DNA of 64,000 nt from Elusimicrobiota bacterium (GCA_016212885.1 JACRDO010000121.1:1-64000); one strand, 5' to 3'. Counted from the stretch's first letter, positions 28,795 to 53,129 are shown. A program made the numbers and translations. Notes: a model not told the origin generated them from the sequence alone.

Positions 28795-28801
28795 GGGATC
28801 T

Positions 28802-31156
28802 GTGGGCGACGACCTGACAGCGGCCCTTCTTAAGTGCGACGTGGCGGATTCGACCCGCTTGTCCGGGGAATGCCTGCCCTTGGTGCGCGACGCGGTGGAA
28901 GCGGCGGTTACGGGATACGGCGTCGAAGTCGGGTTCCCCAGGTGGGAGGGAGACGGGGCGTCCGCCTTTTTCCTGGGCCAGGACGCGGCGGCGCGGGCGG
29001 TGCGCGCAGGTCTCGACGCGGTAGAGCGCGTGCGCCTCATCCCCGGATACGAAGTCCGCCTGAGGGTCGCGATCGGCGTTGGCGGGGTTCAAAAGGGCTC
29101 GGACCTGACCAAGGTTTCGCCGCAGGACTTCAACATCGCGGGACATCTGGCCGCAGGCGACGTGTGTCCGCCGTCCGCCGTCTGCGTGAGCGAAGACGTC
29201 TATTTTTCCCTTCTAGCCGACTCGCCGGGCCTCGCCGGGCGGTTCGCCTATCTTGGAACGACTGAGCGCGGCGGAGCCGCGGCGTTCGTGTCGCCGCCGG
29301 GCAAACGGCCGGCCAAACCCGGCGGCCTTCGAAGCGGGGCTTGCGACGTTTACTCGGCCGCGCTGGAACTCCGCCGCCATTACACGCGCCCCCCTTTCTC
29401 TCTTCTGAGGTTCTACGCCTTGCCACAATTCAATTTCATCGGTTCGCTCGATCTCATAAGCGTCTTCACCCCTTTGAACGTCCGCCGGGGCCGCGCCGAC
29501 ATCAGGCCTCAGACTGCGCCTTCAGGCAGGGAAAAGGGATTCTTCCCGGACAAGCCGGAGCAGGCGCCTGCCGAGCCTTTCAGCGAGGCTTTCAAAAGGC
29601 ACCGGGTCCTCGTGCTCCTGGGCGAGCCGGGCTCGGGCAAGACGACTCTGCTGAGATATCTGGCCATCGCCTCATCCGGGGGCCGCAGTATCCTCCGAAG
29701 GAAAATCGGAGCCGCGGAGAGGCTTCTGCCGGTTCATGCCTGTGCCGCAGACTTGCTCAAGGCGAAGAGACAACACCATGAAGACGGCCCGTGCCGAACC
29801 TTCGCCCGCCTGCTAGCGCCTAAAACCGGCCAGGAAGTGGGGATGCTGGCCAATGCCATAGAAGAAAGAGCCAAAGCAGGCGAAGCGCTTTTTCTTATTG
29901 ACGGGCTCGACGAGTTGGCCGAGGCTTCGGACCGGCTTGATGCCGCGCAGATGGTCGAAGATCTCGCCGGCCTCTTTGGGAAGTCCAGGATTGTCGCTGC
30001 TTGCCGCCCTAGAGGCTATCCAGGCTTGAAGCTTCCTGCCGGCGAGGAGTATGTCCTCGATCCATTAAGCCGGGAGCAGGCGCGGGACCTCACCCGCGCG
30101 TTTTATACCGAGTTCTATCTTTCGCAGAAATACGATGAATCCGCGGCCAAACGGGAAGGCGCGGAAAAAGGCGGGAAGCTGGCCGAGGCCCTTAAGGAGC
30201 GCCGGACACTCGCCCCTTTCACCCAAAACCCGCTTCTACTGTCTTTGGCCGCGCTCGTCCACGTGCAGCTCGGGGAACTGCCGAAATACAGGGTGAGGCT
30301 CTACGACGTGGCTGTCCAGACCTTGGTGGAGGCATGGGCGAAAGCGCGCCGCCAAGCCGGCGAGGCCGGCCCGGTGCGCAGCGTGGACTACGATACCGAA
30401 GGCCGGGCGGTCCTCTCCGCGCTGGCTCTGCACATGCACCAAGACCGGCCTGGCGGAGTCATGGCTGAAGCGGACCTGCGCAAGTTTGTGGCGGAGCACC
30501 TTCCCGGCAAGAAGCGCGGCAAAGACCCGCTCGGGGATCAAAGCCGCGCCAAGGATTTTCTTGCCAGGCTGGGGGAGGCCGGCTCGATACTCGTTGAACG
30601 CAGCGCCGGCCAATGGGCCTTCATGCACCAGACTTTCCAGGAGTACCTGGCTGCGAAATGCCTGGTCGCGAAAGATGCGCAAGATAGTCTTCTTGAGTGT
30701 CTCTATGAGCCCAGGTGGGAGGAGGTCGTCAAGTTCACGGCAGGAGAATTGGGCGTGGTCCAGGGACGGGCCGAAGAGGCGGCGAGGTTCATAGGCAAAA
30801 TCCTGGAAGGGAAAAAGGATCATCCGGCAAAGGAGCTAGGAATACACGTGCTGTTGGCGGCGCAATGCATGGCTGACACGGTCATTGAGGACCCTGACTT
30901 GGAAGACAAGATCATTTCTTCTCTACGAGATTTGCTTTCCCATGGCCGGGCGCCATGGTCCGAAGTTGAAAAGACTTTGCGCCACCTAAGAGGTACTCAG
31001 CCAGGAGACTCCCTCGCTGAATGGATCAGCAAAGCCGAGCTCTTCTACGGCCAGAATCAGGCTCTTAGAGCTCTAGGGAGGCAAGACCTAATCATTCCGG
31101 ATATTCTCAAAACTCTTCGGGAAGACGAAGACGGCACTGCACGCGGCGATGCTTAA
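28802..31156 (+). CDS. NACHT NTPase with N-terminal divergent class III nucleotidyl-cyclase-like domain
   Basis: LLKCDVADSTRLSG, RWEGDGASAFF, RVAIGVGGV, DFNIAGHLAA; NACHT Walker A GEPGSGKTTLLRYLA, Walker B ALFLIDGLDELAEAS; GTG 28802 seven bases after upstream stop. Confidence 0.8.
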   Translation: MGDDLTAALLKCDVADSTRLSGECLPLVRDAVEAAVTGYGVEVGFPRWEGDGASAFFLGQDAAARAVRAGLDAVERVRLIPGYEVRLRVAIGVGGVQKGSDLTKVSPQDFNIAGHLAAGDVCPPSAVCVSEDVYFSLLADSPGLAGRFAYLGTTERGGAAAFVSPPGKRPAKPGGLRSGACDVYSAALELRRHYTRPPFSLLRFYALPQFNFIGSLDLISVFTPLNVRRGRADIRPQTAPSGREKGFFPDKPEQAPAEPFSEAFKRHRVLVLLGEPGSGKTTLLRYLAIASSGGRSILRRKIGAAERLLPVHACAADLLKAKRQHHEDGPCRTFARLLAPKTGQEVGMLANAIEERAKAGEALFLIDGLDELAEASDRLDAAQMVEDLAGLFGKSRIVAACRPRGYPGLKLPAGEEYVLDPLSREQARDLTRAFYTEFYLSQKYDESAAKREGAEKGGKLAEALKERRTLAPFTQNPLLLSLAALVHVQLGELPKYRVRLYDVAVQTLVEAWAKARRQAGEAGPVRSVDYDTEGRAVLSALALHMHQDRPGGVMAEADLRKFVAEHLPGKKRGKDPLGDQSRAKDFLARLGEAGSILVERSAGQWAFMHQTFQEYLAAKCLVAKDAQDSLLECLYEPRWEEVVKFTAGELGVVQGRAEEAARFIGKILEGKKDHPAKELGIHVLLAAQCMADTVIEDPDLEDKIISSLRDLLSHGRAPWSEVEKTLRHLRGTQPGDSLAEWISKAELFYGQNQALRALGRQDLIIPDILKTLREDEDGTARGDA

Positions 31157-34889: not shown

Positions 34890-35792
34890 CTATACGGCTA
34901 AGGCGGCCAGCCGTTCCTCGAGGCGGATATGGGCGTCGTCCCCCTCGTTATCGAGCAGAAAGTACTTGCTGGCCTTGGTGGAGATGAGGACGAGGCAGTT
35001 GGCGGCGAGACCTGCGCGCTGGTACGCCGCCAGCTTGTGGTGGCCGTCGAGAACGAAGCCCGCGAAGAACGAATGCATCGTCTTGGACCGCCGCGTGGTG
35101 ATGGATTCGGGGATCGGCCGCTGGATGAGACCGAGCAGGAAGACCCGCGGCCTGTCCCCGTTCTGGATCATCTGCTGGTAGAGCCGGATGTTCTCCTGCT
35201 TGAGCCGGTTCGCCGGCACGAGCGGGATGACGAACTCGTGCAGCTTCTCGAGGGTGTCGTCGTGGCGGAAAATCCGGGGCGACTTGCCCTCGTAATGCTC
35301 CCAATCGGACAGGAGGTCCTCCGCGGCGGGATCCTCGATGTCCCAGATTTCCTGGAACTCGCTGTTGTGAAAGTAGGAGGATTCATCGTCGGCCTGGTAG
35401 GGGCCGGTCAGAGTGACCGTCGTGTTCATCAGGTAGTATTCGCCCTTCTCCATGATGTCGAGCATCGGGAGAAGCTCGCGCACCATCTCGGCGTCGATCG
35501 GGCGGGGAAGCGCGATCGTCTTGGGCAGGTTGAAGAGCTTCTTATGCGGGGCGGGCCTGGGATCGCGCAGGCATTTGAACCAGAAGTGGCAGGTGTCGCA
35601 GTCGTTGCCGATCTCGAAGCGGCGGGCCCCGTTGATCTCGAGGTAGAGCGAGTTGGCCTGGGCGTGCTTCTTGACCACGCCGATGCGCACGGCGCCCTTG
35701 GATTGGCTGAGCTTGATCTTCCAAAGGCGGTCGCGGACCTCCGCCGGCTCGAGAACGGTCTGCAGCGGTTCGGATTTCACCGTGTTCTCCAA
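34890..35792 (-). CDS. ParB-like/sulfiredoxin-like fold hypothetical protein with Cys motif CDTCHFWFKC
   Basis: DGHHKLAAYQRAGLAANCLVLIS; CDTCHFWFKC; coupled to downstream gene. Confidence 0.5.
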   Translation of the reverse strand: MENTVKSEPLQTVLEPAEVRDRLWKIKLSQSKGAVRIGVVKKHAQANSLYLEINGARRFEIGNDCDTCHFWFKCLRDPRPAPHKKLFNLPKTIALPRPIDAEMVRELLPMLDIMEKGEYYLMNTTVTLTGPYQADDESSYFHNSEFQEIWDIEDPAAEDLLSDWEHYEGKSPRIFRHDDTLEKLHEFVIPLVPANRLKQENIRLYQQMIQNGDRPRVFLLGLIQRPIPESITTRRSKTMHSFFAGFVLDGHHKLAAYQRAGLAANCLVLISTKASKYFLLDNEGDDAHIRLEERLAALAV

Positions 35793-35907: not shown

Positions 35908-36956
35908 TGAGGGCCTCGACCCTTTCCCTGGCTCTGCGCCCCTCGGCCGCCTCGCGCCTGCTCCCCATGCCGGCTCTGCGCTTGGCGCGCCTGCTCAAGA
36001 CGCCGGAACCGGAATATGGGCGGCTGATCCGCGCCATCGAGGATGACCCCTTGTTCGTCCGGCTCAGCCGCTCCCCCCAAGGGATCTTCAGCCGCAGCGC
36101 GCGCCCGGAGCGCTTCTGCTGGAGCCTCTTGGAGGCTGGAAGGCTCCCGCAGTCCTCTGCCGCGCTCGAGGGCCTGCTCCCGGACGGGGACCCCGCCTTC
36201 TTCGAGCGCCTGCGCGCTCTCGGCAGGGAAAGGTTCTCGCGCTATTTCCTCGGAGAGCGGGACTTCGACCCGGACGCCGCGGCCCGCGCGCTCGGCCTAT
36301 GCGCGGAGGAAGTCCTGAGGATCCGCGCCTACGTGGACAGCTTCCTCGCCCGGGCGCAGGCCGCGCCGCCCTGCGGCCCGGCCCCGGCCCCTGCGCCGCG
36401 CCCGGCCGTCGTGGCCTTTATCGAAAGGGACGGGGACAAGATCGAGGCCCGCTATCTGAGCGCCCACTACGCCCGCGGCCGCTACCGCATCGACTATGAG
36501 AAGCTCTCGGCGTCGAAGCGTTCGGGCGTCTTCTCCCATGCGGAGTCCCGGCGGCTCATGGAGCTCGTGCGCGCGATGGAGGCGGTCAACGGAAAGATCA
36601 CGGCCCTCGACGCGGCGCTCGCGGCCGCGGTATCGGGGCAGAGGGAGTTCCTCCTCTCCGGGGACCGCCGCGACTTGAGGCCACTCTCCCAGAGGGAAGC
36701 CGCGGCGCAGGCCCGGACATCCGCCAGCGCCTTCTGCCGGGCCCTGTCCGCAAGGAGCGTCCTCGCGCCGTGGGGCGCCGAGCTGGCCCTCGCCGCCTTC
36801 TTCCCTTCGCGCCGCGAATGGCTGGGCCGCCTCGTGGCCGAGATCGCGGGCCAGGGAGACTTCAGCGACGAGGACATCCGGGGCCGCCTGGCGCAGCGCG
36901 GCCTGCGCGTCTCGCGCCGCCTCGTCAACCTCCGCCGCAGGGAATTCGCCCCATGA
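35907..36956 (+). CDS. Divergent sigma-54 (RpoN)-like factor
   Basis: Region I-like LSLALRPSAASRLLPMPALRLARLLKTPEPEYGRLIRAIEDDPLFVRL; core/HTH-like YRIDYEKLSASK...QREFLLSGDRRDLRPLSQREAAAQARTSASAFCRALSARSVLAPWGAELALAAFF; RpoN-box position SRRLVNLRRREFAP. Confidence 0.75.
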   Translation: MRASTLSLALRPSAASRLLPMPALRLARLLKTPEPEYGRLIRAIEDDPLFVRLSRSPQGIFSRSARPERFCWSLLEAGRLPQSSAALEGLLPDGDPAFFERLRALGRERFSRYFLGERDFDPDAAARALGLCAEEVLRIRAYVDSFLARAQAAPPCGPAPAPAPRPAVVAFIERDGDKIEARYLSAHYARGRYRIDYEKLSASKRSGVFSHAESRRLMELVRAMEAVNGKITALDAALAAAVSGQREFLLSGDRRDLRPLSQREAAAQARTSASAFCRALSARSVLAPWGAELALAAFFPSRREWLGRLVAEIAGQGDFSDEDIRGRLAQRGLRVSRRLVNLRRREFAP

Positions 36957-38017
36957 GCGGCGCGCTCGACGAGAAGCTTTTCGCTTGGGCCTTCGAGCAG
37001 TCGGACGCCGCGCTCGTGGGGATCGACGAGAGCCGCGCGGTCCGCACCTGGACGCGCGGGGCCTCGGCCCTGCTGGGGTTCCCGCGGGAGGAGGCGCTCG
37101 GGCGCGCTTTCTCCGAGTTCTTCGCCCATCCGAAGGACTGCGGGCGCCTCCTGGAGGCGGCCTCCGGCGCGCCGGTGCTCAGGAACGTCGAGACCGTCCT
37201 CATGGCCAAGGGGGGCGCGCAGATGCGGGCCTACTTGACGCTGCGCGCGTTCCCAGGGAAGGTCTTCCTCGCGGAGTTCAGTCCGATCGTCGTGGATTTT
37301 GAGGTGGCTCCTGAGCACAAGGCGGTCCGGGAGGCCCTGGTGCGCATGGAGCGCTTCTGCTCCGTGGGCCGCATGACCGCGGCCTTCACCCACCAGATGC
37401 GCACCCCCCTGCACGTCGTCTCGAGCACCGCTGAGTTCGCGCTCGAGTTCCTCTCCCCGAGCGGGAAGCTGAGGGAGTGCCTGGAGATGATTCTGCGCAA
37501 CGCCCATCACGCCACCGAGTCGGTGAAGTCCCTCCTGGATTTCGCGAAAGCCGGCCGGCCCCGCCTCGTGGAGGCCTCTCTCAACGACGCCGTGCGCGCG
37601 GCCGCCCAGCTCATCGAGAAGCTGTGCGCCTCCCGCAGGGTCGAGCTGAAGCTCGAGCTCGGCGAGCCCGCCCCGGCGCTCTTCGACCCGCCGCAGATCC
37701 GCGCCGTGGTGCAGAACGTGCTCGTCAATGCCGCCGACGCCTCGGCCCAGGGCGGCCTCATCGAGGCCCGCACCTCCTCCTCCGCGGAGGGCGGGGCCCA
37801 GCTCGTGGTTCGGGACACCGGGCCGGGGATGACCCCGGAAGTCCTCGCCCGCGCCAGCACGCCCTTCTTCACCACGAAGGAGGACGGAACGGGCCTGGGG
37901 CTCTATCTCTCCAAGCGGGTGCTGGCCGAGCACGGAGCGTCCTTCCACATCGACAGCCTGCCAGGCCGCGGCACGACCGTGACCATCCGCTTCCCTCCGT
38001 CGGCGCGTTCCGCCTGA
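36953..38017 (+). CDS. PAS-containing soluble histidine kinase (NtrB-like)
   Basis: ATGA overlap; H-box GRMTAAFTHQMRTPLHVVSS; N-box LVNAADASAQ; DTGPGM; GTGLGLYLSKRVL. Confidence 0.85.
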   Translation: MSGALDEKLFAWAFEQSDAALVGIDESRAVRTWTRGASALLGFPREEALGRAFSEFFAHPKDCGRLLEAASGAPVLRNVETVLMAKGGAQMRAYLTLRAFPGKVFLAEFSPIVVDFEVAPEHKAVREALVRMERFCSVGRMTAAFTHQMRTPLHVVSSTAEFALEFLSPSGKLRECLEMILRNAHHATESVKSLLDFAKAGRPRLVEASLNDAVRAAAQLIEKLCASRRVELKLELGEPAPALFDPPQIRAVVQNVLVNAADASAQGGLIEARTSSSAEGGAQLVVRDTGPGMTPEVLARASTPFFTTKEDGTGLGLYLSKRVLAEHGASFHIDSLPGRGTTVTIRFPPSARSA

Positions 38018-38024
38018 GGCTAGA

Positions 38025-39413
38025 ATGGCCTTCCTCCTCATCGTAGACGACGACGCGGACCTGCGGACGTCGCTTTCCCGCTACCTCGCGGCCAAGGGCC
38101 ATTCCGTCTCGCAGGCCCCGGACGCGGCCGCGGCGCTGGCCTCGGTCGAGACCCAGCCGGTCGAGCTCGTATTCCTGGACCTGAGCCTGCCGGACGCGGA
38201 CGGCCTGAAGGTCCTCGAAGACATCCGGCGGGCCGAGCCGGGGATCCCGGTCCTGATATTGACCGGGAACACGGAGGTCTCGACCGCTGTCAAAGCCATG
38301 AAGCTCGGGGCGAGCGACTACTTGCTCAAGCCCTTCAGCAACGAGGATCTGTCCGTCCATCTGGAGCGGGCGCTCCGGGAGCGGCAGCTGGAGCGCGAGG
38401 TGGTCCGCCTGCGCGAACGCCTGACGCACCAAGCGGGCGCGGCCCTGCTCTGCGGGAGCCCGGCGATGCGCGCGGTCTATGAAGCCGTGGACCGGGTCGC
38501 GCCCACGGACCTCACCGTCGTGCTGCAGGGAGAATCCGGGTGCGGCAAGGAGGTCGTCGCGCGGCTGCTCCATGAGAAGAGCCCGCGGCGGGAGGGGCCC
38601 TTCCTTGCCGTGGACTCGGGCGCCCTGCCGGAGGCGCTCGTGGAGAGCGAACTGTTCGGCTACGAGAAGGGCGCCTTCACCGGGGCGGACCGCCCGAAGC
38701 TCGGGCAGTTTGAGCTCGCCGCGGGGGGGACGATATTCCTGGACGAGGTGGCGAACCTGCCGCTGGAGGCGCAGGGGAAGCTGCTGCGCGTCCTGCAGGA
38801 GCGGCGCATCCGCCGCCTGGGGGGCAAGAAGGACGTGCCGGTGGACGTGCGCGTCGTCGCGGCCACGAACCGGGACCTGGGCGCCGAGGTGCGGGCCAAG
38901 CGCTTCCGCGAGGACCTCTTCCACCGTTTGGACCAATTCACGCTGAACCTGCCCTCCATGCGTGAGCGCCGTGAGGACATCGAGCCTCTCGCGCGCCATT
39001 TCCTGCGCGAGGCCAACCGCCAGCTGGGCCGCCGGGTGGCGGGCTTCAGCGCGCAGGCCCTCGCCTGCCTGCGCCGCCGCGGCTGGCCCGGCAACGTGCG
39101 GGAGATCCAGAACGTCGTGACGCGCGCCGCTCTTCTCGCCTCTGAGCGCATCGGCGTCGAGCACCTCGCCGCGGAAGGGGGGGGAACTGAAGCTCCCAGG
39201 CGGGAGCCTGTCCGCCGCGTCCCTCCCGCAAGCCTTTCGCTGAAGAAAGCTTCCCGGCGGGCCGCGGGCGAGGCTGAGAAGAAGGTCATCCTTGAAGCCC
39301 TCGCTCTCACCGCGAGCAACAAGGCCCGCGCCGCGCGCCTGCTTGGTATCGACCGCAAATCCCTCTACGCGAAGCTCCGAAAGTACAGGCTCAAGCCTCC
39401 GACAAAACTGTAG
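38025..39413 (+). CDS. Sigma-54-dependent NtrC-family response regulator
   Basis: Receiver LLIVDDDADLR...LDLSLPDADG; AAA+ GESGCGKEVVARLLHEKS; GAFTGA motif; Fis-type HTH ALTASNKARAARLLGIDRKSLYAKLRKY. Confidence 0.95.
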   Translation: MAFLLIVDDDADLRTSLSRYLAAKGHSVSQAPDAAAALASVETQPVELVFLDLSLPDADGLKVLEDIRRAEPGIPVLILTGNTEVSTAVKAMKLGASDYLLKPFSNEDLSVHLERALRERQLEREVVRLRERLTHQAGAALLCGSPAMRAVYEAVDRVAPTDLTVVLQGESGCGKEVVARLLHEKSPRREGPFLAVDSGALPEALVESELFGYEKGAFTGADRPKLGQFELAAGGTIFLDEVANLPLEAQGKLLRVLQERRIRRLGGKKDVPVDVRVVAATNRDLGAEVRAKRFREDLFHRLDQFTLNLPSMRERREDIEPLARHFLREANRQLGRRVAGFSAQALACLRRRGWPGNVREIQNVVTRAALLASERIGVEHLAAEGGGTEAPRREPVRRVPPASLSLKKASRRAAGEAEKKVILEALALTASNKARAARLLGIDRKSLYAKLRKYRLKPPTKL

Positions 39414-39647: not shown

Positions 39648-42600
39648 ATGAACCCATGGGATGAAGAAGCTTTCAAAGAAGTGACCGATGTGGAGGCGGC
39701 ACGGCTCGCGCTGCGCGGAGCCGTGGCCACCATCCGCGACCTCCAGGGACTCAACGTCAATCTCAAGGGCAGCCTGCAGGAAGCCGCCAACAGGGAGAAG
39801 GCGGCGAAGGCTGAGATTGCGGAGTTCAGCAAGCAGATCGAGACGTGGGAGGAAGAGGGGAAGCGCTGGGAGGCCGAGCGCAGGGATGTCCTGCTCAACG
39901 AGGCTAAGATCCGCGAGCGCATCCGGCTGGAGGTGCTCGAGGAGGAGCGCGGCAATTTCGCGCGCGAACGCGAGCGGCAGAACGTGGAGATTTCCCGCCT
40001 GGCCGCGCAGGTCGAGGAGTGGCGGAAGGTCCACAAGAGCAAGGAGGCCCAATGGACCGGGCTGGAGCGCATCCTCGAGCAGCGCGAAGCCGAGTTGATC
40101 GCAGCCCAGCGGGAGAAGGTCGAGCTCGTCAACCGGTTCCACCGCGACGCCGAGATGGTCGGCCGCCTGCGCCAGCAGCGGGACAAGGAGATCGTCGACA
40201 CGGTCCACACCCGCGAGAAGGAGACCGAGGCGAAGGAGCGCGAGATCGCGGAGCTGCGGAGCAAGAACGAGGATCTCGCCCGCACCCTCGCGGCTTCGGC
40301 CCAGGATTTCGAGCTGCGCCTCAAGGCGGGAGAGGAGAGGCTCGCCAAGGCCTACGCCGACAAGGAGCTGGCCCTCCAGGAGAAGTACTCCAAGCGGGAG
40401 GCCGAGCTGCAGGGGGCCTGGTCCGAGCTCGAGAACGGGCTCTGGCAGAGGGCGAAGGAGGCGCGGGAGAGGCTCGACGCGACGTCGCAGAAGCAGTTCG
40501 AGGAGCGCGCGCGGGCGCTCGCGGACCGCTCGAAGGAGATCGAAGGCATCCTGGAGCGCCGCAAGGCCGAAGTCGAAGAGGATTTCCAGAAGCGCGTCGG
40601 CGAAGCGGAGAGGCGCTGCGCGGCCCTGGAGCGCAGGCTCCTGGAGGAGCACGCCCGCAAGGAGGCGGAGCAGATCAAGCGCGCCGAAGATATGATCGCG
40701 AGGGAGAAGGCCGCCCTCGGCGAGCAAGCCAAGATTCGCTCAGAGGCCGCCTCGGCGGAGCTTGGCGCGCGGACCGAGGAGCTGCGGCTCAAGGAGGAGG
40801 CGCTCGGGCAGGAGATGGCGCGCTTGCGCTCGGAAACCGAAGCAGAGTTCTCCGTGCGGGAGGCGCGCCTGCGTACCGAGCTCAGGGAGAAGGAGACGGC
40901 GCTCGAAGAGGCCTTCCAAAAGCGGCACGTCGAGCTGCAGGAGGGCTTCCTCGCCAAGGAGAACGGGCTGCGCGACGAGTGGACCCGCCGCAAGGTCGGT
41001 CTGCTCGAGGAGCAGGAGAAGGCCGCCGCAGCCGAGCGCGCCTCGCTCTCGGCCCAGCTCGAGCAGAAGAGCCGCTCGCTGGAAGAGGCCTACGCGGCCA
41101 GGGTCGCGGAGCTGGAAGCCACGGAGAAGGCCGCGCAGGAGCAGTACCGCGTCTGGAAGGCCGCGGCCCAAGACGAGATGCTGCAGAAGGAGAGGAACCT
41201 CGATAAGCAGTGGTACCACCGGGAGCAGGAGCTCGTGCGCCGCTATGAGACGGCTCTGGAGCAGGAGCGGCGCGCGTCCGCGCTCGAGCTCGAGAAAACC
41301 CGGTCACAGTACGAGGCTCAGCTCAAGACCGCGGAGGTTGAGTTCTTCGGCCGCTCCGAAACCCAGCGCCTCGGCTACGAGCGCCTCGAGGGTGAGCTGG
41401 TCGAGGCGGGCGAGCGCCGCGAGGCGGGGCTCAGGGAGAAGGCCCAAGCCGAAGCCGCGGAGCTTCGCGAGCGGCAGAAAACCGCGCTCTGCGAACAGGA
41501 ACGGCATTTTGAAGGGGAGATGCTCCGCCGGGAGGCCGAGCGCGGCCTTGAAATGAAGGCGGTCCGGGAGCAGCATCAGTCGCAATTGCTCGCCCTCGAG
41601 GCTGCGCTCGGGGAGAAGGACATGGAGCTCCGCCGCCTGCGCGAGCTCGCGGAGGGCGCGGAGAAGGAGAAAGCCGCGGCCTGGGACCGGCTGAGGACGG
41701 CCGAGAGCCGCTGGGAGTCGGAGCGCCTGGCTTGGCAGGAAGGCGAGCGGGAGCGCGAGGCCCGGCGCGAGGAGAAGTACCTGTCCTTGGAGGGCAGGCT
41801 GCAGCAGCTCTGGGCGGAGAAGGAGTGGGAGTACCTCGCGCGCCACGAAGACGACCTGGCGGCCCAGGCCAAGCGCTACGCGGACGAGCTCCAGGCCATG
41901 GAGGCCGGCCGCCAGAAGGAGCGGGAGCGGCACGTCCAGGACCTCAACGCGGTCGAGGAAGGCCTGGCCGCCCGATTCGAGGAGTGGAAGAAGGTTGCGC
42001 TCGAGGCCGTCGATCGCGAGAAGCAGGAGTGGATGGAGCGCCAGCGCCGCGCCCTAATCCGCGAGCGCGAAACGCTCCAGGAACAGGCGAAAGCCCATCT
42101 GGACCAGCTCAACGCCGAGGCCTCGAGCCGCGAAGCCGAGCTGGCCAAGCGGCGGGAAGCCCTCGAGCTGCGCTTCCGGCGCTCGGAGGAGGAGGCGGCC
42201 GGCGCCTGGCGCGAGCGCGAGAAGGCGCTCGTCGCAGAGATGCAGGAGCGCCTCGCCAAAGAGCGGGAGGCCTTGGACGCCCTCTACGCGGGACGGGAGG
42301 AGACGCTCAACGCAAACTACCTCGCGCTGGAGCGGGAGCTCAAGAACGCCGCGGCCCAGAGGGCGCAGCTCATCGAGGAGGAGGCCGGCCGGAGGCTGGC
42401 GGAGGCGGCCGCTGAGCAGCAGGAGGCCTTCCGGGAGAAGGCCGCCCGCATGGAGCGGGAGTCGGAGCAGAAGCGGGCCGCGGAGCTGGACGCTCTGCGC
42501 GCCTCCCTGCAGGAGGAATACGGCCGCAGGCGGCTCGAGCTCGAGAAGCGGCAGGCGCAGCTCGAGAGGGAGATGCGGGAGAAGGAGGCCCGGCTCGACC

Positions 42601-45600
42601 ACGCGCATCTGGAGCACGATCAGGCGCTCGAGACGCAGTGGAAGCTGCGCGAGGCGGAGCTGATGGGCAAGGTCGCCGAAGAGCGCGAGGCCTACCGCGC
42701 CAGGATCAAGATGGAGACCGAGCGGCTCGAGGCCGAGGCCCGGGAGGAGACCGGGAAGGCCGTCGAGCGGGCCCGGCAGGAGATAGACCGGGCGAACGCC
42801 GAGTGGGTCGAGCGCAAGCGCCAGGACCTGGCCGAGGAGCAGGAGCGGCTCCAGGGGGAGCACCGCAACGCCATGGCTTCGGCCGAGGCCGAGAAGCTGG
42901 CTCGGGAGAAGGACATCGAGGCCCGCCGGTCCCAACTGGAGGAATACTATAAGTCCCGCGAGGAGGCTCTCCTGGCCGAACTGCGCGAGCGGGAGCGCCG
43001 CTATGTCGAGCAGGCGCAGGGCGAGCAGACCCAGTCGCGCGCGGCCTTAGACCGGCTTTACCGGGAGCGCGAGGAGACCCTGCAAAAGAACTACCTGCAG
43101 CTGGAGGCCGAGCTGAAGGCCAACTGGGCCCAGAAGGAAGAGCTGTCGAAGCGCGAGGTCGAAGCGCGCCTCGCTCAGGAGCTGAAATCATTCTCCGAGA
43201 GGATGGCCCAGAGGGAGCAGCAGTGGAACCAGGAGGCGCGCCTGAAGCTGCAGGCCGTCATGGAGAAGGAGCGCGCCGGACTGCAGGTGGAATTCAGCCG
43301 GCGCCAGATGGAGCTAGAGCAGACCCGCCTGGCGCTCGAAGCCGAGCGCAAGGAAGTGGAGGCCGGGCTGGAGAAGACCCTTCAGAGCCGCCGCGCGGTG
43401 CTGGAGGCGGAGTTCCGCGGCCGGGAGACCGCGGCCGAGACGCACAGGGCCGAGGAGGACGAGAAGCTCGAGCACCGGCGCCAGCAGGTGGAGCGCGAGC
43501 GCGCCGAAGCCGAGCGCCTGATGGAGAGCCGCCGGCGCGAGATTGAGGCCCTGGCGCGCCAGCAGGAGCATGCCCTCTCGGAGGAGCAGGCCCGGCTGGA
43601 GGAGGAGTTCGAGGCCCGGCGCCGCGCCGCGGAGGCCGAGCGCGCCCAGATGGAGAAGGTCTATATCGAACGAAACGCCTACTTGGCGCAAGCGTACGGC
43701 GAGAAGGAGAAGGAGCTCAAGGCCGCCTACGCGCGCAAGGAGGCCGAGCTGGCCGCGGCCGTCGAGCGCGAGCGCAAATCCTCGGAGAACCGCCGGCACC
43801 AGGCGGAGCAGGCCGAGGCCGCCCGGCAGGCCGAGCATGTGCGGAAGATGCAGGAGCTGGAAGCGGCCGCGGCCGCGGCCGTGGAGCAGGAGAAGGCGCG
43901 GCTCGCGTCGGAGCGGAAGGCTTTGGACGGCGAGTGGATGAAGGTGCGCCAGGCTCTCGGCCGCGAACGGGCTGGCCTCGAGAAGGATATCCGCTCGATG
44001 GAGGAGAATTTGAAGGACGCCTATGTCCGGCGCCAGCGCGAGCTCGAGGAGGAGGCCGCGCGCCAGGACGCGGCGAAAGAGAGGAATTTCAAGGAGCTCG
44101 AGGCCGGGCTTGAGAGCGAGAAGGCGGACATCGGGCGCGAACGCAAGGCGCTCGAGGAGCGCCGCGGGGAGCTGGAGCGCGCGTTCCGGGACAAAGAATC
44201 GGAGTTCCAGAGGCGGTTCGTGCGCCAGCAGCAGGATCTGGAGGAAGCCTGGAAGGCCCGGGAGCTGGAGCTGCTCGCCTTGGTCGGGGAGACGCGCGAG
44301 AAGAGCCGCCTGGAGCTGCAGAGCGACTCCGAGCAGCTGCACCGCGCTATGCGCGAGCAGGTCGCGCGCCAGGAGGCCCGCCTGGCCGAGGAGAAGAAAG
44401 CCCTTGAGGAGCAATTCCGCCGCCGCGAGGATGACCTCAAGGCGGAGATCCACCGCGAGGAAGCCGACCGGTTCGCGCGCGAGTTGAGGGCGCGGGAGGC
44501 CGATATCGAGCGCAGGACGCGGGAGCGGATGCGCGGGCTAGAACGGGCGGCGGAAAAGGGCCTGGAGGAGCGCCGGGCCGAGCTCGATCGCCGGGCCGAG
44601 GCCGAGCTGGCCGGCGAGCGGGCGGCGGTGCGCGAGAGCGAGACGGCGCGCCTGCGCGTCCAGTTGGAGGAGGAGTACGAGCGGCGCCGCGCGGAAATGG
44701 AGCGGCAGGCCCAGTCGCGGCTGGAGCAGTCCGTGCGCGCCCAGAGCGAGGCCATGCAGTCGCAGCAGCAGGCCCGCTCGACGCTCTTAGACCGGCGCGA
44801 GGAGGAGCTCAAGGGCCGGCTGAAGGAGCTTTCGGAGCGCGAGTCGGAGATCGCCAGGCGCCGGGCCGAGATCGAGGAGCTCCTGAAAGGGGGCGACGAG
44901 CAGCTCATGGCCCGCTTGACCCGGGAGACGGATTCGCTGGCCAAGCTGAAGGCCCAGCTCGAGGAGGAGTTCGGCAGGAAGCAGGCCGAGCTCGAACAGT
45001 CGCACGCGGAGCGCGAGAAGGCCCTGGAAGAGGGCCGGCGGACCCTCTCCGGCGCCCGCGAGGAGGTCCTGCGCAAGGAGGGCGAGGTCCGCGAGCTCAG
45101 GGACCGGCTGCTGGCGTCCTTCGCGCAGGAGCCGGAGACCGGGCGGCTGCCGCAGGTGGCCTTCGAGGCCGAGCTCAACGACCTGGTCTTCGGCATCGCC
45201 CACCAGATCCGCAACCCGCTCGGGATCATCCGGAGCCTCGCGGAGGACAGGATCGAGAGGCTCTGGGTCGCGCCCGCGGAGCGGCGGGCCATGGAAGCGA
45301 TCCTGCGCTCGATCGGGAACCTCAAGGAGCGCATCGAGCAGCTCGTGGACTTCACCCAGCCGCTGCGGCTGAAGACGACGAAGCTCGACCCCAGGCTCTT
45401 CGTGGAGCGCTCTCTCGCGGAGATCGAGCCGCAGTGCCGCCAGAAGGGCATCCAGGTGGTCCATCGCATCGGAACGCGCATGCCGGTGCTGAAGGCCGAC
45501 GCGACGCGCCTGCGGGAGGCCATGCTCAACCTGCTCATCAACGCCGTCGAGGCGATGCCGCAGGGCGGCACGCTGACGCTCACGGCCCGCTTGGACGAAA

Positions 45601-45824
45601 TCGAGAAGGCCGTGCGCATAGAAGTCGAGGATACGGGCGGCGGCATCGCTCCGGAGCACCTCAAGGACGTGGGCCGGCCGTTCTTCACGATGAGGCCGGG
45701 CGGGATCGGGCTTGGGTTCGCGATCTCCAAGCGCATCCTGAGCGCCCACGGCGGGACTCTGGAATTCGACAGCCGCCTCGGGGCCGGGAGCCGCGTGGTC
45801 GTAAAGCTCCCGGCCCGCGAGTAG
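39648..45824 (+). CDS. Giant coiled-coil histidine kinase (about 1800 residues of predicted coiled coil plus HisKA/HATPase module)
   Basis: Continuous Glu/Arg/Ala/Leu-rich charged helix; C-terminal DLVFGIAHQIRNPLGIIRSLAE, LLINAVEAMPQGG, DTGGGIAPEH, GGIGLGFAISKRIL. Confidence 0.9.
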   Translation: MNPWDEEAFKEVTDVEAARLALRGAVATIRDLQGLNVNLKGSLQEAANREKAAKAEIAEFSKQIETWEEEGKRWEAERRDVLLNEAKIRERIRLEVLEEERGNFARERERQNVEISRLAAQVEEWRKVHKSKEAQWTGLERILEQREAELIAAQREKVELVNRFHRDAEMVGRLRQQRDKEIVDTVHTREKETEAKEREIAELRSKNEDLARTLAASAQDFELRLKAGEERLAKAYADKELALQEKYSKREAELQGAWSELENGLWQRAKEARERLDATSQKQFEERARALADRSKEIEGILERRKAEVEEDFQKRVGEAERRCAALERRLLEEHARKEAEQIKRAEDMIAREKAALGEQAKIRSEAASAELGARTEELRLKEEALGQEMARLRSETEAEFSVREARLRTELREKETALEEAFQKRHVELQEGFLAKENGLRDEWTRRKVGLLEEQEKAAAAERASLSAQLEQKSRSLEEAYAARVAELEATEKAAQEQYRVWKAAAQDEMLQKERNLDKQWYHREQELVRRYETALEQERRASALELEKTRSQYEAQLKTAEVEFFGRSETQRLGYERLEGELVEAGERREAGLREKAQAEAAELRERQKTALCEQERHFEGEMLRREAERGLEMKAVREQHQSQLLALEAALGEKDMELRRLRELAEGAEKEKAAAWDRLRTAESRWESERLAWQEGEREREARREEKYLSLEGRLQQLWAEKEWEYLARHEDDLAAQAKRYADELQAMEAGRQKERERHVQDLNAVEEGLAARFEEWKKVALEAVDREKQEWMERQRRALIRERETLQEQAKAHLDQLNAEASSREAELAKRREALELRFRRSEEEAAGAWREREKALVAEMQERLAKEREALDALYAGREETLNANYLALERELKNAAAQRAQLIEEEAGRRLAEAAAEQQEAFREKAARMERESEQKRAAELDALRASLQEEYGRRRLELEKRQAQLEREMREKEARLDHAHLEHDQALETQWKLREAELMGKVAEEREAYRARIKMETERLEAEAREETGKAVERARQEIDRANAEWVERKRQDLAEEQERLQGEHRNAMASAEAEKLAREKDIEARRSQLEEYYKSREEALLAELRERERRYVEQAQGEQTQSRAALDRLYREREETLQKNYLQLEAELKANWAQKEELSKREVEARLAQELKSFSERMAQREQQWNQEARLKLQAVMEKERAGLQVEFSRRQMELEQTRLALEAERKEVEAGLEKTLQSRRAVLEAEFRGRETAAETHRAEEDEKLEHRRQQVERERAEAERLMESRRREIEALARQQEHALSEEQARLEEEFEARRRAAEAERAQMEKVYIERNAYLAQAYGEKEKELKAAYARKEAELAAAVERERKSSENRRHQAEQAEAARQAEHVRKMQELEAAAAAAVEQEKARLASERKALDGEWMKVRQALGRERAGLEKDIRSMEENLKDAYVRRQRELEEEAARQDAAKERNFKELEAGLESEKADIGRERKALEERRGELERAFRDKESEFQRRFVRQQQDLEEAWKARELELLALVGETREKSRLELQSDSEQLHRAMREQVARQEARLAEEKKALEEQFRRREDDLKAEIHREEADRFARELRAREADIERRTRERMRGLERAAEKGLEERRAELDRRAEAELAGERAAVRESETARLRVQLEEEYERRRAEMERQAQSRLEQSVRAQSEAMQSQQQARSTLLDRREEELKGRLKELSERESEIARRRAEIEELLKGGDEQLMARLTRETDSLAKLKAQLEEEFGRKQAELEQSHAEREKALEEGRRTLSGAREEVLRKEGEVRELRDRLLASFAQEPETGRLPQVAFEAELNDLVFGIAHQIRNPLGIIRSLAEDRIERLWVAPAERRAMEAILRSIGNLKERIEQLVDFTQPLRLKTTKLDPRLFVERSLAEIEPQCRQKGIQVVHRIGTRMPVLKADATRLREAMLNLLINAVEAMPQGGTLTLTARLDEIEKAVRIEVEDTGGGIAPEHLKDVGRPFFTMRPGGIGLGFAISKRILSAHGGTLEFDSRLGAGSRVVVKLPARE

Positions 45825-45840: not shown

Positions 45841-47076
45841 ATGGGACGAGTGCTGATCGTTGATGATGAGAGCGACATGCGGATGGCTCTCGCGAACGTG
45901 CTCGCGCGCCTCGGGCACGAGGTCGTCGAGGCGGGGGACGGGCCGGCTGCCTTGAAGGTCCTCGCGGAGCAAGGCGCGGACTTAGTCCTGCTGGACCTGC
46001 GTCTGCCGGGCATGGACGGGATCCAGATCCTGCGGCGCATCCGCGAGCGGGACGCCGAGACCCCGGTCATCATGGTGACCGGGTACGGCAGCGTCGAGTC
46101 GGCCATGCAGGTCCTGCAGCTCGGAGCGAGCCATTATCTGGCCAAGCCGTTCAGCAACAAGGAGCTGGCCGAGACCGTGGAGCGGGTGCTCAGCGCCCAG
46201 AAGGCCGCGGCGAGCGCCGGGGTGCTCGGGCGGCGGCTGGCGGAGAAGATCCACCCTACGGCGGCCGAAGGGGCGGCCCTGGTCCCGGTCCAAGCCCAGG
46301 CTCCTCTGCGGCCGGGCCCCTGGATGGGCCGGCTGTCAAAGTGGCTGCTCCTGCTGGGGGTCCTGGCCGCGGGAACTTTCCTCTGGCCCGACCTCCGCCA
46401 GGGCCTTCGCCGCGATTACGGGACCGCCTATTCGCATCCGGCGGCGCTCGTATGGCAGGGAGAGCGGCTCTGGGCAGCTGACTGGCTGACGCAGACCGTC
46501 TACCAGCAGGAATTGCGCGCCGGCCGGCTGAGCACGGTGCGCTCGACCCTCCTGGCTCGGACCCACATCACGGGCTTGGCGGTCTCTGCGGAGCACGTCT
46601 ACATCAGCGATTCCTGGGCGCGGGCGATCCAGAAGCGGAAGCTCGACGGCCGCCTGACCCTGGTGAAGTCGATCCCGAGCCCGGGGCCCCGGCCCGCGGG
46701 CTTGTTCTTCGACGGCCGCTATCTGTGGTCGAGCGACACGCTGTCCGGCCGCATCTACCAGCATGAGCTCGACGAGCAGCTGAGCGTGCTGGCGTCCTTC
46801 CCGGCCGCGGGGAAGGCGCCCATCGCCGTTTTCAAGGATGAAGGCTATCTGTGGTCGGCTGACGCGGATACGCGCGTGCTCTATCAGCACCGGCTCGACA
46901 ACCAGCTCCGGGTCATCGCCGTGTACTCCCTGCCGGAGCTCGACCGCGGCCTGCAGCAGCTCTCCTGCTTCGCTTTCCGCAATGGGGAGGTCTGGCTCGG
47001 GCGCGACGGAGTCGACTCCATGCTCCGCCGCCGGCTCGACGCCTTCCGCAAGCGTGAAACTCAGGTCTGGAGGTAA
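45841..47076 (+). CDS. Receiver domain - TM helix - beta-propeller-like extracytoplasmic domain protein
   Basis: LIVDDESDMRMALANVL...LLDLRLPGMDG...KPFSNKEL; TM WLLLLGVLAAGTFLW; repeats LWAADWLTQTVYQQEL / LWSSDTLSGRIYQHELDEQL / LWSADADTRVLYQHRLDNQL. Confidence 0.85.
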   Translation: MGRVLIVDDESDMRMALANVLARLGHEVVEAGDGPAALKVLAEQGADLVLLDLRLPGMDGIQILRRIRERDAETPVIMVTGYGSVESAMQVLQLGASHYLAKPFSNKELAETVERVLSAQKAAASAGVLGRRLAEKIHPTAAEGAALVPVQAQAPLRPGPWMGRLSKWLLLLGVLAAGTFLWPDLRQGLRRDYGTAYSHPAALVWQGERLWAADWLTQTVYQQELRAGRLSTVRSTLLARTHITGLAVSAEHVYISDSWARAIQKRKLDGRLTLVKSIPSPGPRPAGLFFDGRYLWSSDTLSGRIYQHELDEQLSVLASFPAAGKAPIAVFKDEGYLWSADADTRVLYQHRLDNQLRVIAVYSLPELDRGLQQLSCFAFRNGEVWLGRDGVDSMLRRRLDAFRKRETQVWR

Positions 47077-47080
47077 TGCG

Positions 47081-47827
47081 ATGATCCACATGCTCCCGGT
47101 TCTGCTGCAGGTTCTCTTGGCCTGCGCCCCAGGCGCAGGAGCCGTTGGCCCGCTCATGCATTTCGAGGGGCGCCTGCTGGATGTCCAAGGCCGGCCCTTG
47201 AGCGGGACCTACCTTCTGGACTTCCGGGTCTACGACAAGCTGGCCGGAAACGCGGTGATCTGGCTGGAATCCCAGTACGTTTCAGTCAAAGGGGGCTCTT
47301 TCATGGCGGAGCTCGGGCGGACGAATCCGCTGCCGGAGAAGGTTTTGAGCGCCGCGCACCGCGTGGCGGTCTCGGCGCCGCCCGGCCTGCCCTGGAAGCC
47401 GCTCCTGGCCATCGCGCGTCTGGCTCAGGGTTCCGCGGCGGCGCAGAAGGCCGCCAAGAAGCTCAAAACCGAAGGCCGCAAGGAAGGAGCCCCGGTCCCG
47501 CTCCAAGGGGAGGACAAGATCCGCCGGCTCGAGGAGGAGCTGGGCGAGTTCAAGAGGGCTGCTGAGCGCTCCAAGAAAGAGGCGGAGGAGTCCCGCGGGC
47601 GGCTGGAAGCTTTGGAGAAGACCGTGCGTGGGTCCGGCCTGGAGCCGGGGGAGGGCGGCGTGCGGATCTATGAGGTGCTCCCGGGCGATACCCTGCGGAG
47701 CATCGCGATCAAGCTCTACGGAGACGCGGACCGCTGGGCCGACCTCTACGATGCGAATCACGACCGGCTTCAGAGGGGCGGAGATCCCATGGCGGGCCAG
47801 CGGCTCGTGGCGCCGAAGGCCAGATAG
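47081..47827 (+). CDS. Secreted coiled-coil LysM-domain protein
   Basis: N-terminal signal; YEVLPGDTLRSIAIKLYGDADRWADLYDANHDRL...GQRLVAP. Confidence 0.85.
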   Translation: MIHMLPVLLQVLLACAPGAGAVGPLMHFEGRLLDVQGRPLSGTYLLDFRVYDKLAGNAVIWLESQYVSVKGGSFMAELGRTNPLPEKVLSAAHRVAVSAPPGLPWKPLLAIARLAQGSAAAQKAAKKLKTEGRKEGAPVPLQGEDKIRRLEEELGEFKRAAERSKKEAEESRGRLEALEKTVRGSGLEPGEGGVRIYEVLPGDTLRSIAIKLYGDADRWADLYDANHDRLQRGGDPMAGQRLVAPKAR

Positions 47828-47836
47828 GGGGGCGCC

Positions 47837-49570
47837 ATGAACGCTGAAATAGAAAACCAAATGGCCCTCATCAAGCGAAGCCTTCGCGTCCTCTCGCTGG
47901 CCGTCCCGCTGGCAGGGCTTCTTGCGGCCCCCTCCCGCGGCCAGGAAACGGTCGGCGCCCGCATCGTCGGCTTCCAAGACGCCCTGACCCTGCGCGTCGC
48001 AGACGAGGTGATTCAGTTGGGCCCCGGCTCCATGGGCTACGTGATCCCGGCCGGAGCCAAGACGGCCGTGCTGGCAGGCGAGGCCATGATGCTCGTCGGG
48101 AGCGCCTTGGTGAAGGCGGGCCCCGGCGCGGGCTTCATTGTCGTGGACGTCGCCGGGCAGGCGGGGTTGGCCGTTTCGAACGGGGTCGTCGAGGCGACGC
48201 TCTCGGACGGCACCCGCGTCGAATACGCGGCGGGGCAATTTCTTTCGCCGGCCGCGGCCGGGGCTCCGTCGCCCGCGGCCAAACCCCCGGCCGCGGTCTT
48301 CCAGCCGCCGGAGGCCGTCTCGCCTGCGGCGCCTGCGCCTGCGGCGCAGGAAGCGCCGCCCTTCGACCCGCTGACATCGCTCGCCAACGCCATGTCCAAG
48401 CTGGCGCGGCTGGGCAAGCCGGAGTTCAAGGTCGTCGTCGATATCCACCCGTACTACCGTTTCGACGGGACCTACGACTCGAACATCTATATGGTCCCCA
48501 AGGACCGTTCGAACGGCACGCCTACCGGGGGCGGAGTGGTCGGCTCTTGGATCACGAGCAACAACGTCGGCCTGCGCTTCAGCGCGCCGATCAACCGCAG
48601 GCATGCGCTGGAGGGCGGCTATGACCTGAAGGCCCTCTCGTACGCCAAGCAGTCCAAGACGAACGACACCTTCATGCAAGCCGTGACGGCCGTCTACGCC
48701 TACAGCGGCCTGCAGGGCGTCAAGGGAAAACTGACGGAAGGCTATCTCAGCACCACGGACCCGGCCTTCAGCGAGCTCGTCGGGCGCGAGCAGAGGTTCC
48801 AGAACAACCTGGGCGCTCAGATCGACGTGGCCCGCAGCCGGCTGTTCGTGTACACGCTCGAGGGGGATCATGCCTTCCATAAGTACCTGAATCCGTCGCT
48901 CGCGGCCCTGCTCAACCGCTGGGAAGCCAGCGGAGGCATCAAGGCGGGCATTCTCCTCCAGCCGAAGACCAGGCTCTACGCCGCCTTCCGCCAGGGCGTC
49001 ATCCACTACTCCGCGGGCAGGCGCGCGAACTCCAGGTCCACTCAGGTCGGCCTGGGCCTGAGCGGACGCTTCAGCGCGAAGCTGAACGGGCTCGTGGAAA
49101 TGAACGTCAACTCAAGACGGTACGTTGAAGCGTCCGCGGCCGGGCCGCAGACCGTGACCTCCGTGCTCAGCGCCGTGCAGCTGAGCTATCAGCCCGGACA
49201 GCGCACGCAGCTCTCCATGCGCTTCAACCGGAACATCAGCGAGTCGACGTTCGGCAGCAACCGCTACTACGTGGCCACGGGGCTGCAGTTCCAGGCGAGC
49301 CATGCCTACCACCGCCTCACCTTCGGCGCGAACGCGCAGTACGAGGTGGACCGCTACCCGGAGGCCGGGTCCGTGCCGACTGCGAACGGGCCAATAATCC
49401 AAAGCCGGCGCGACGACCTCTACGCGGGAGGCGGCAGCATCGACTGGAAGCTGCGGCCCTGGATGACGCTCGGCATAGCCTATCAGCGGATGCAGAGGTT
49501 CTCCATCTACTCGGGGCAGTACAACTACGCGGACGACCGGTCATCGGTGAACGCGCGGCTGAGCTTTTAG
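47837..49570 (+). CDS. FecR-like N-domain plus outer-membrane beta-barrel protein
   Basis: Signal-like LSLAVPLAGLLAAPSRGQ; FecR-like VADEVIQLGPGSMGYVIPAGAKTAVLAGEAMM; alternating amphipathic strands ending in Phe (SVNARLSF). Confidence 0.65.
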   Translation: MNAEIENQMALIKRSLRVLSLAVPLAGLLAAPSRGQETVGARIVGFQDALTLRVADEVIQLGPGSMGYVIPAGAKTAVLAGEAMMLVGSALVKAGPGAGFIVVDVAGQAGLAVSNGVVEATLSDGTRVEYAAGQFLSPAAAGAPSPAAKPPAAVFQPPEAVSPAAPAPAAQEAPPFDPLTSLANAMSKLARLGKPEFKVVVDIHPYYRFDGTYDSNIYMVPKDRSNGTPTGGGVVGSWITSNNVGLRFSAPINRRHALEGGYDLKALSYAKQSKTNDTFMQAVTAVYAYSGLQGVKGKLTEGYLSTTDPAFSELVGREQRFQNNLGAQIDVARSRLFVYTLEGDHAFHKYLNPSLAALLNRWEASGGIKAGILLQPKTRLYAAFRQGVIHYSAGRRANSRSTQVGLGLSGRFSAKLNGLVEMNVNSRRYVEASAAGPQTVTSVLSAVQLSYQPGQRTQLSMRFNRNISESTFGSNRYYVATGLQFQASHAYHRLTFGANAQYEVDRYPEAGSVPTANGPIIQSRRDDLYAGGGSIDWKLRPWMTLGIAYQRMQRFSIYSGQYNYADDRSSVNARLSF

Positions 49571-52067: not shown

Positions 52068-53129
52068 TCAGCCCAAGAGCTGCGGGTTGCGCATCGTCAT
52101 CATGGCCGTCTCGCGGGTGATGATCTGCCGCTGGTAGAGAGCCTTGATGGAGGCGTCCTTCGAGATCATGCCCTGGCTGGTGCCGGTCTGCAGGACGTCG
52201 TAGATCTGGGCGAGCTTGCCTTCCTTGACGAGCTGGCGGACCGCCGGGGTCGCCAGCAGCACCTCGATGGCCAGCGCGAGCCCCGTCTTGTCGGCCCTGG
52301 GCAGGAGGTCCTGGGAGATGATAGCCTCGATCGTGTTGCAGAGCTGGTCGCGGATCGTCTCCTGCTCGTCGCCCGGGAAGGCGCTGACGATGCGCTGGGC
52401 CGTCTTGGCCGCGTCCGGGGTATGCAGCGTGGTCAGGACCAGGTGGCCGGTCTCGGCCGCGGTCAGGGCGGCCTTGATCGACTCGGGGGTGCGCATCTCG
52501 CCGATGCAGATCACGTCGGGGTCCTGGCGGAGGGCGTCCTGGATGCCGACCTCGAAGGACGGGACGTCGACGCCCACCTCGCGCTGGAGGAAGAAGCAGC
52601 GCACGGGGTTGAAGAGCGTCTCGATGGGGTCCTCGATGGTGACCACCTTCCCGGGCTGGCCCTGCTTGTTGATGTGGTCGAGCATCGCGGCCATCGTGGT
52701 GCTCTTGCCCGTCCCCGTCGCGCCGGTGATGAACACGATCCCCCGGGTCTTCTGGGTCAGGGACCCGACGATCGGCGGCAGGCCGAGGGCCGAGAGCGGG
52801 TAGATCTTTGTCGGGATGATGCGCAGCGAGGCCGCGATGGTCCCCTGCGCTTTGCAGAGGTTCATGCGGAAGCGCCCGAGCCCGGCGAGGGTGAAGGAGA
52901 TGTTGACGCGGCTCTCGTCCTGGAAGACCTTCTTGTGGTATTCGTTGAGGTAGGGCGAGGTCATCTGCCAGATGACCGAGGAATCGACCACCGGCCTTTG
53001 GGTGGGGGCGACGTCGTGGCAGATGCGGTAGATCGGCGGATGGCCGTGCAGCAGATGCAGGTCCGAGCCGCCCAGCGAGACGGCTTCGCGAAGGAGAGTC
53101 TCGAGTTGCGAATCTGTCCCAACCGCCAT
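52068..53129 (-). CDS. pilT: Type IV pilus retraction ATPase PilT
   Basis: GGSDLHLLHGHPPIYRI, FITGATGTGKSTTMAAMLDHIN, VTIEDPIE, IGEMRTPESIKAALTAAETGHLVLTTLHT. Confidence 0.9.
   Translation of the reverse strand: MAVGTDSQLETLLREAVSLGGSDLHLLHGHPPIYRICHDVAPTQRPVVDSSVIWQMTSPYLNEYHKKVFQDESRVNISFTLAGLGRFRMNLCKAQGTIAASLRIIPTKIYPLSALGLPPIVGSLTQKTRGIVFITGATGTGKSTTMAAMLDHINKQGQPGKVVTIEDPIETLFNPVRCFFLQREVGVDVPSFEVGIQDALRQDPDVICIGEMRTPESIKAALTAAETGHLVLTTLHTPDAAKTAQRIVSAFPGDEQETIRDQLCNTIEAIISQDLLPRADKTGLALAIEVLLATPAVRQLVKEGKLAQIYDVLQTGTSQGMISKDASIKALYQRQIITRETAMMTMRNPQLLG

Follow-up and report, generated by a model that had tools for sequence, protein, structure and literature searches.

A giant hendecad coiled coil in place of a sensor: a predicted fusion of a rod protein with a histidine kinase in Elusimicrobiota

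The stretch of Elusimicrobiota bacterium DNA analysed here (GCA_016212885.1, JACRDO010000121.1:1-64000; 64,000 nucleotides, hereafter the window) carries on its plus strand, at 39648..45824, an open reading frame (ORF) of 2058 amino acids predicted to encode a giant hendecad coiled-coil histidine kinase, the coil-kinase. Comparison with relatives indicates that in one order of uncultured Elusimicrobiota a hendecad rod specific to that order, extended by more coil, became fused with the catalytic half of a kinase that lacks a sensor. We favour, with a probability of about one half, the view that the product is a scaffold-tethered histidine kinase/phosphatase, in which the coil occupies the place of the sensor and probably anchors the enzyme to some cellular structure. 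Judged from sequence, the coil-kinase is unusual and lineage-restricted. Those relatives that carry names are Elusimicrobia metagenome-assembled genomes, the nearest kinases outside Elusimicrobiota lack a long coil (the best matches mostly have ordinary upstream parts of ~250-430 residues), and our literature search found no published Elusimicrobiota coiled-coil kinase or hendecad-coil kinase. Known scaffolds that pair with kinases are separate proteins, whereas here both would form one polypeptide. Because the unfused halves persist in relatives, both the partnership and the direction of signalling are open to testing. The comparison also draws attention to a rod protein that is specific to the order and so far unstudied, and to a phylum-wide, apparently outward-facing regulator made of a receiver, a transmembrane (TM) helix and a propeller.

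Separate halves and their fusion

The coil-kinase begins with a conserved head (residues 1-45) and continues to about residue 198 as a heptad-like stretch (39648..40241, plus strand), both delimited by alignment and local period. The head consensus is M-N-P-W-D-E-E-x-F-K-E-[IV]-x-D-x-[ED]-A-A-R-L-A-[IL]-R-G-A-V-A-T-I-R-D-L-Q. The N-terminal 300 amino acids, which match no Pfam family, were found in 34 of the 295 genomes of the phylum, all from one order, and most of these proteins have no kinase. In most genomes examined of the family f2, the coil stands alone as a protein of ~630-970 amino acids (one of 399) lacking a kinase. Such stand-alone coils (L176-L185, L188-L190) share head and coil with the window protein and, in most cases, its locus; they differ in ending mostly at ~630-970 amino acids, with neither a kinase nor an adjacent receiver gene, and those tested had no Pfam match. 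By blastp, the three longest (L176, L177, L178) are 35-39% identical to the window protein over ~950-1050 aligned positions, the homologous part being residues 1 to ~1000 (39648..42650, plus strand), roughly half of the coil. Most stand-alone genes have the order-specific gene c1 (34890..35780, minus strand, identified by locus comparison) as divergent neighbour and a PilT gene nearby, as at the fused loci; in genus g5, c1 lies elsewhere, away from the coil gene. The window protein, with the conserved N-terminal 300 amino acids and a syntenic c1, falls within the same family.

The other half also occurs independently. In other families, close relatives of the catalytic module are sensor-less kinases of ~220-300 amino acids. 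In all six that were examined (L191-L196) the next gene encodes a receiver-TM-propeller protein, and four of these loci also have a LysM-containing stretch immediately upstream. These pairs have the same HQ-type catalytic module and the same partner gene as the coil-kinase, and differ in having no long coil. The propeller domain is present in 72 of the 295 genomes, a count that includes some other proteins. Since both halves exist separately in relatives, we interpret the coil-kinase as a fusion of a rod protein with a two-component pair. Fused forms cluster in a tree of the N-terminal 300 amino acids (2 changes, against 5.8 in shuffles), which allows a single fusion or one fusion followed by loss.

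At the window locus, the candidate cognate partner (45841..47076, plus strand) starts 16 bp downstream of the coil-kinase gene and would comprise a receiver, a TM helix and a periplasmic beta-propeller. A gene of this type directly follows the fused gene in every locus that extends that far. In its AlphaFold model, a low-confidence linker with the TM helix connects a receiver to a beta-propeller that is modelled with confidence and has its nearest match among glutaminyl cyclotransferase folds (3mbr, TM-score 0.74 by target). The propeller is predicted to be periplasmic because a single TM helix follows the cytoplasmic receiver. Across the phylum, regulators of this kind stand beside sensor-less HQ-type kinases and form an apparent outward-directed two-component output. 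One genome (G004; L010, L054) encodes a second related kinase of 618 amino acids with a charged coil of 184 residues, and on its contig a receiver-propeller-type match lies ~0.6 kb from the kinase.

Relatives encode orthologues of 2434, 2859, 2548, 2522 and 2262 amino acids, and these five intact proteins contain proline-free stretches of ~2,000-2,600 residues. Three further orthologues (L015-L017) are interrupted by contig ends. In L018 (G030, 4419-10914), the gene is split by a frameshift into frames of 633 and 1808 amino acids, either through an assembly error or because it is a pseudogene; the sister species (G282) has an intact coil-kinase of 2262 amino acids.

Nature and constraint of the coil

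Between Pro3 and Pro1829 the window protein contains no proline, leaving a proline-free run of 1825 residues (4-1828) with a chance probability of ~10^-60 at the proline frequency of the neighbouring proteins (7.4%). In every 100-residue block of the coil, 40-52% of the residues are charged, with a net charge close to zero. The 19-residue hydropathy maximum of the coil is 0.65, and therefore no TM segment is predicted within it. The hydrophobic residues follow an 11/3 period: power at period 3.667 reached 8.3-9.6 in six homologous proteins, that of the window among them (highest value in any shuffle, 1.9), with power at 3.5 near background. The first 200 residues have a local best period mostly of 3.475-3.65, nearer to heptads, and thus provide an internal control that the method is able to see heptads. 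Eleven states also performed best among cyclic hidden Markov models that had learned from stand-alone homologues and other families and were then tested on the five proteins of family f1; for the window protein the gain was +200 nats with 11 states, +48 with 7, +15 with 10 and +5 with 12. Together with register decoding, these analyses place the hendecad coiled coil at residues ~199-1680 (40242..44687, plus strand). It is followed by a C-terminal coil segment with a local period of ~3.59 (44697..45125, plus strand), whose last residue, 1826, was set by local period and AlphaFold.

Of the two main core positions, one is Leu (51%) and the other Leu, Tyr, Phe, Trp or His (68% hydrophobic); a third position is a mixture of Arg, Glu and Leu. 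The very high content of Glu, Arg and Lys could suggest a single charged alpha-helix or a disordered charged region in place of a coiled coil. We regard this as highly improbable given the hydrophobic 11/3 period, which stands far above shuffles and led us to reject a single charged helix, and the residues at the two main core positions, Leu at 51% in one and Leu, Tyr, Phe or Trp in the other. The coil is likely a parallel dimer, an arrangement that the kinase modules would impose, judging from the DHp domain. A COILS-type heptad scan (our own implementation of the program and its matrix) scored only 51% of residues above 0.5 and gave ~20 breaks. Because the period is 11/3 rather than 7/2, we consider these breaks false, and heptad-based prediction was dropped in favour of period analysis and cyclic models. 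Frequent breaks had been named in the initial annotation as grounds for rejecting a continuous coil; those in the heptad scan are explained by the hendecad period, and the very long, essentially continuous coil that it proposed is upheld here and in the five homologues. Viterbi decoding of the window protein gave 28 register changes over 1825 residues, with a longest unbroken run of 252. The commonest shifts were 4, 5 and 7, and 4, 7 and 8 in most orthologues. This is largely as expected from the insertion of 4- or 7-residue coil units, although some shifts (1 and 5) are of another kind.

The orthologues are collinear. Along most of the coil, sequence identity is close to that of the kinase: ~75% within the genus and, across most of the family, roughly 40-65%, with lower values in the middle. 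Between two congeneric species, in which synonymous sites have diverged (synonymous divergence, dS, 0.5-0.8), the ratio of nonsynonymous to synonymous divergence (dN/dS) was 0.28, 0.37, 0.23 and 0.27 along residues 1-1200, 0.63 in residues 1200-1500, 0.50 in 1500-1825 and 0.32 in the catalytic module. The alignment behind the value for 1200-1500 is uncertain because it contains large indels, one of them 287 residues long. The N-terminal ~1200 residues thus appear to be about as constrained as the kinase. This argues against an ordinary two-component kinase whose coil is a weakly constrained, passive spacer or oligomeriser, as does the occurrence of residues 1 to ~1000 as a separate conserved protein. 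The charged, low-complexity composition, the large indels and the relaxed 1200-1500 interval would fit such a spacer, which we nevertheless consider improbable.

If extended, the coil would by arithmetic measure ~0.27 micrometre in the window protein and 0.39 in L012, and to our knowledge a coil of this type would rank among the longest hendecad coiled coils. Its length varies greatly: 1825 against 2198 residues in the two congeners (a difference of 373), with a spread of ~800 residues within the family, up to ~2,620. Growth may have come partly from internal duplication of ~258/276 residues. In L012, residues 731-1321 of the coil contain a 258-residue tandem duplication with 63% identity, possibly a recent step; elsewhere the duplication is decayed. 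We found no DNA direct repeats of at least 40 bp in the gene, and, with the orthologues collinear, rejected the idea that a repetitive gene had collapsed during assembly. No long-range net-charge repeat, the sign of filament stagger, rose above shuffles. A strong 51-residue repeat was present in L018 only, and a repeat like the 51-mer of Scy was therefore rejected as a general feature.

A tethered catalytic module with an HQ H-box

The coil is separated from the catalytic module by a linker (residues 1827-1835; 45126..45152, plus strand) in which a Pro or Gly is present in the aligned sequences. AlphaFold, run as a monomer with five sequences, ends the coil helix at residue 1826, leaves 1827-1835 unstructured, mostly with pLDDT<50, and then gives a DHp hairpin and an ATPase domain. 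Since the conserved linker breaks the helix, rigid helical coupling of coil to DHp is unlikely. These observations bear on a further possibility, a ruler, tension or filament-state sensor in which the stretch, span or assembly of the rod or its polymer would be relayed along the helix to the kinase. Such a device would fit a coil that is essentially uninterrupted, free of proline and strongly conserved, and that would measure 0.27-0.39 micrometre if extended. We find it unlikely, however, because coil length differs so much even within a genus, the linker uncouples coil from DHp, and the net-charge repeat typical of staggered filaments is missing. The initial annotation is thus partly supported. 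Its charged helix of ~1800 residues ahead of an NtrB-like module, lacking TM and PAS domains, agrees with our results; a fixed ruler conflicts with the variable length, and the linker speaks against tension or rotation passing directly into the kinase. Our results support a kinase without a sensor but with a very long coil, and a 'tether or filament' would be consistent with this.

The catalytic module (DHp and HATPase_c; 45153..45821, plus strand, from Pfam, NCBIfam and AlphaFold) appears to be NtrB/AtoS-like and sensor-less. Pfam matched HATPase_c only (residues 1951-2057, E 2.7e-23), with no match in the window protein to PAS, a separate HisKA or a receiver domain; in NCBIfam, residues 1841-2057 align to AtoS/ZraS catalytic cores. 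The gene had earlier been ended at 45435, a position inside this module and before the HATPase domain; the ORF runs to 45824. The N, G1, F and G2 boxes of ATP binding are intact at residues 1961-2026. The H-box (45201..45215, plus strand) reads His1852-Gln1853-Ile-Arg-Asn1856, with Gln in place of the usual Glu or Asp. HQ[IV]RNPLGI is invariant in the fused kinases (10/10 orthologues), including Asn at H+4, whereas other kinases of the genome with a readable H-box mostly have HE or HD. Activity of the H-box is therefore doubtful. Asn at H+4 is required for phosphatase activity. In CrdS, E372Q abolished kinase activity and kept phosphatase activity, and NtrB E140Q is kinase-negative and phosphatase-competent by phenotype (PMC3510030). 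The invariant HQ, these Gln mutants and the invariant Asn together make a phosphatase-dominant enzyme a specific prediction, although an enzyme with a natural HQ could make up for the missing acidic residue.

We propose that the rod would bind to, or assemble into, a cytoplasmic structure and replace a sensor by putting the catalytic module at one site. The flexible linker may let this module reach the membrane-anchored receiver, whose phosphorylation it would set, possibly mainly by dephosphorylation because the H-box is HQxxN. The propeller, together with the LysM and outer-membrane partners, would read out the state of the receiver. As input, the site or assembly state of the rod would count, not its length or tension. 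Beyond the fusion itself, these are steps that we infer. A more specific version, in which the hendecad rod is cytoskeleton-like, carries its own two-component phosphatase and by its assembly or position directly sets receiver phosphorylation as a cytoplasm-to-envelope output rather than for sensing, is at present tentative.

A possible variant, compatible with the scaffold-tethered enzyme, is a dedicated, kinase-negative phosphatase positioned by the rod and acting on the membrane receiver, with the upstream PAS-HisKA-HATPase histidine kinase (36953..38017, plus strand) as the kinase. The HQxxN H-box of all fused orthologues, the precedents of CrdS and NtrB, and the intact ATP-binding boxes and Asn would fit, as would the HE or HD found in the upstream kinase of L012, L013, L014 and L186. 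Against it, short HQ relatives adjoin the same receiver type and would be left with no evident neighbouring kinase, enzymes with a natural HQ may make up for it, and the upstream kinase of the window is itself HQ. The last point holds for the window genus, weakens a simple division of labour between kinase and phosphatase, and also counts against the scaffold-tethered reading. So do three others: the receiver-TM-propeller protein is a presumed partner, assigned by adjacency; type IV pili are linked by neighbourhood only, PilT lying ~6 kb away; and in six genomes of the order c1 is retained with no coil gene beside it, so that the rod seems dispensable.

Control of a kinase by a scaffold has a precedent in PodJ-PleC of Caulobacter, in which the scaffold sets kinase site and activity; PopZ-CckA and SpmX-DivJ concern site (PMC8980812). 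The likeness is one of function: there, scaffold and kinase are separate proteins, and PleC is bound through a PAS domain, which the window protein lacks. In Myxococcus, AglZ and FrzS join a two-component domain to a long coil in the context of motility. That domain, a receiver in FrzS (PMC1974792), is an N-terminal pseudo-receiver, whereas the window protein has a C-terminal DHp-HATPase and no receiver match. FilP and Scy, cytoskeletal proteins of Streptomyces, are long hendecad coiled coils like the window protein (PMC9858780). They differ in a DivIVA-like RGYDxxEVD motif; the window protein lacks GY[DN] and a Pfam DivIVA match. Neither FilP nor Scy, as far as we know, carries a kinase. SMC, MukB, SbcC and Rad50 have ATPase heads and antiparallel arms. 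Their likeness to the window protein is that they held the longest prokaryotic coils reported in a survey of 22 genomes (PMC1322226).

Neighbouring genes

Downstream of the receiver-TM-propeller gene lie two plus-strand genes co-located with the fused form, encoding a secreted LysM protein (47081..47827; domain match and locus comparison) and, in family f1, an outer-membrane beta-barrel (BBP2_2/EpsL-like; 47837..49570). The conserved syntenic gene for a PilT-family type IV pilus ATPase is at 52068..53129 on the minus strand (TIGR01420, 355.8 bits, above 319.1). Between the upstream kinase and the coil-kinase is a gene for an NtrC-type sigma-54 response regulator (38025..39413, plus strand), with full-length matches only in the window, the congener and L187. 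The c1 protein, of ~300 amino acids, occurs in 41 of the 295 genomes; it has no Pfam or NCBIfam match, and combines a CDTCHFWF motif with a DGHHKxAAYxxAG stretch that presumably resembles ParB.

Elsewhere in the window, a plus-strand ORF of 5048 amino acids (1040-16186) with CarboxypepD_reg, fn3 and Big_13 matches would encode a giant surface-type protein, and another of 802 amino acids (28748-31156, plus strand) contains a NACHT NTPase domain (Pfam, E 2.3e-10) and may be a defence STAND protein.

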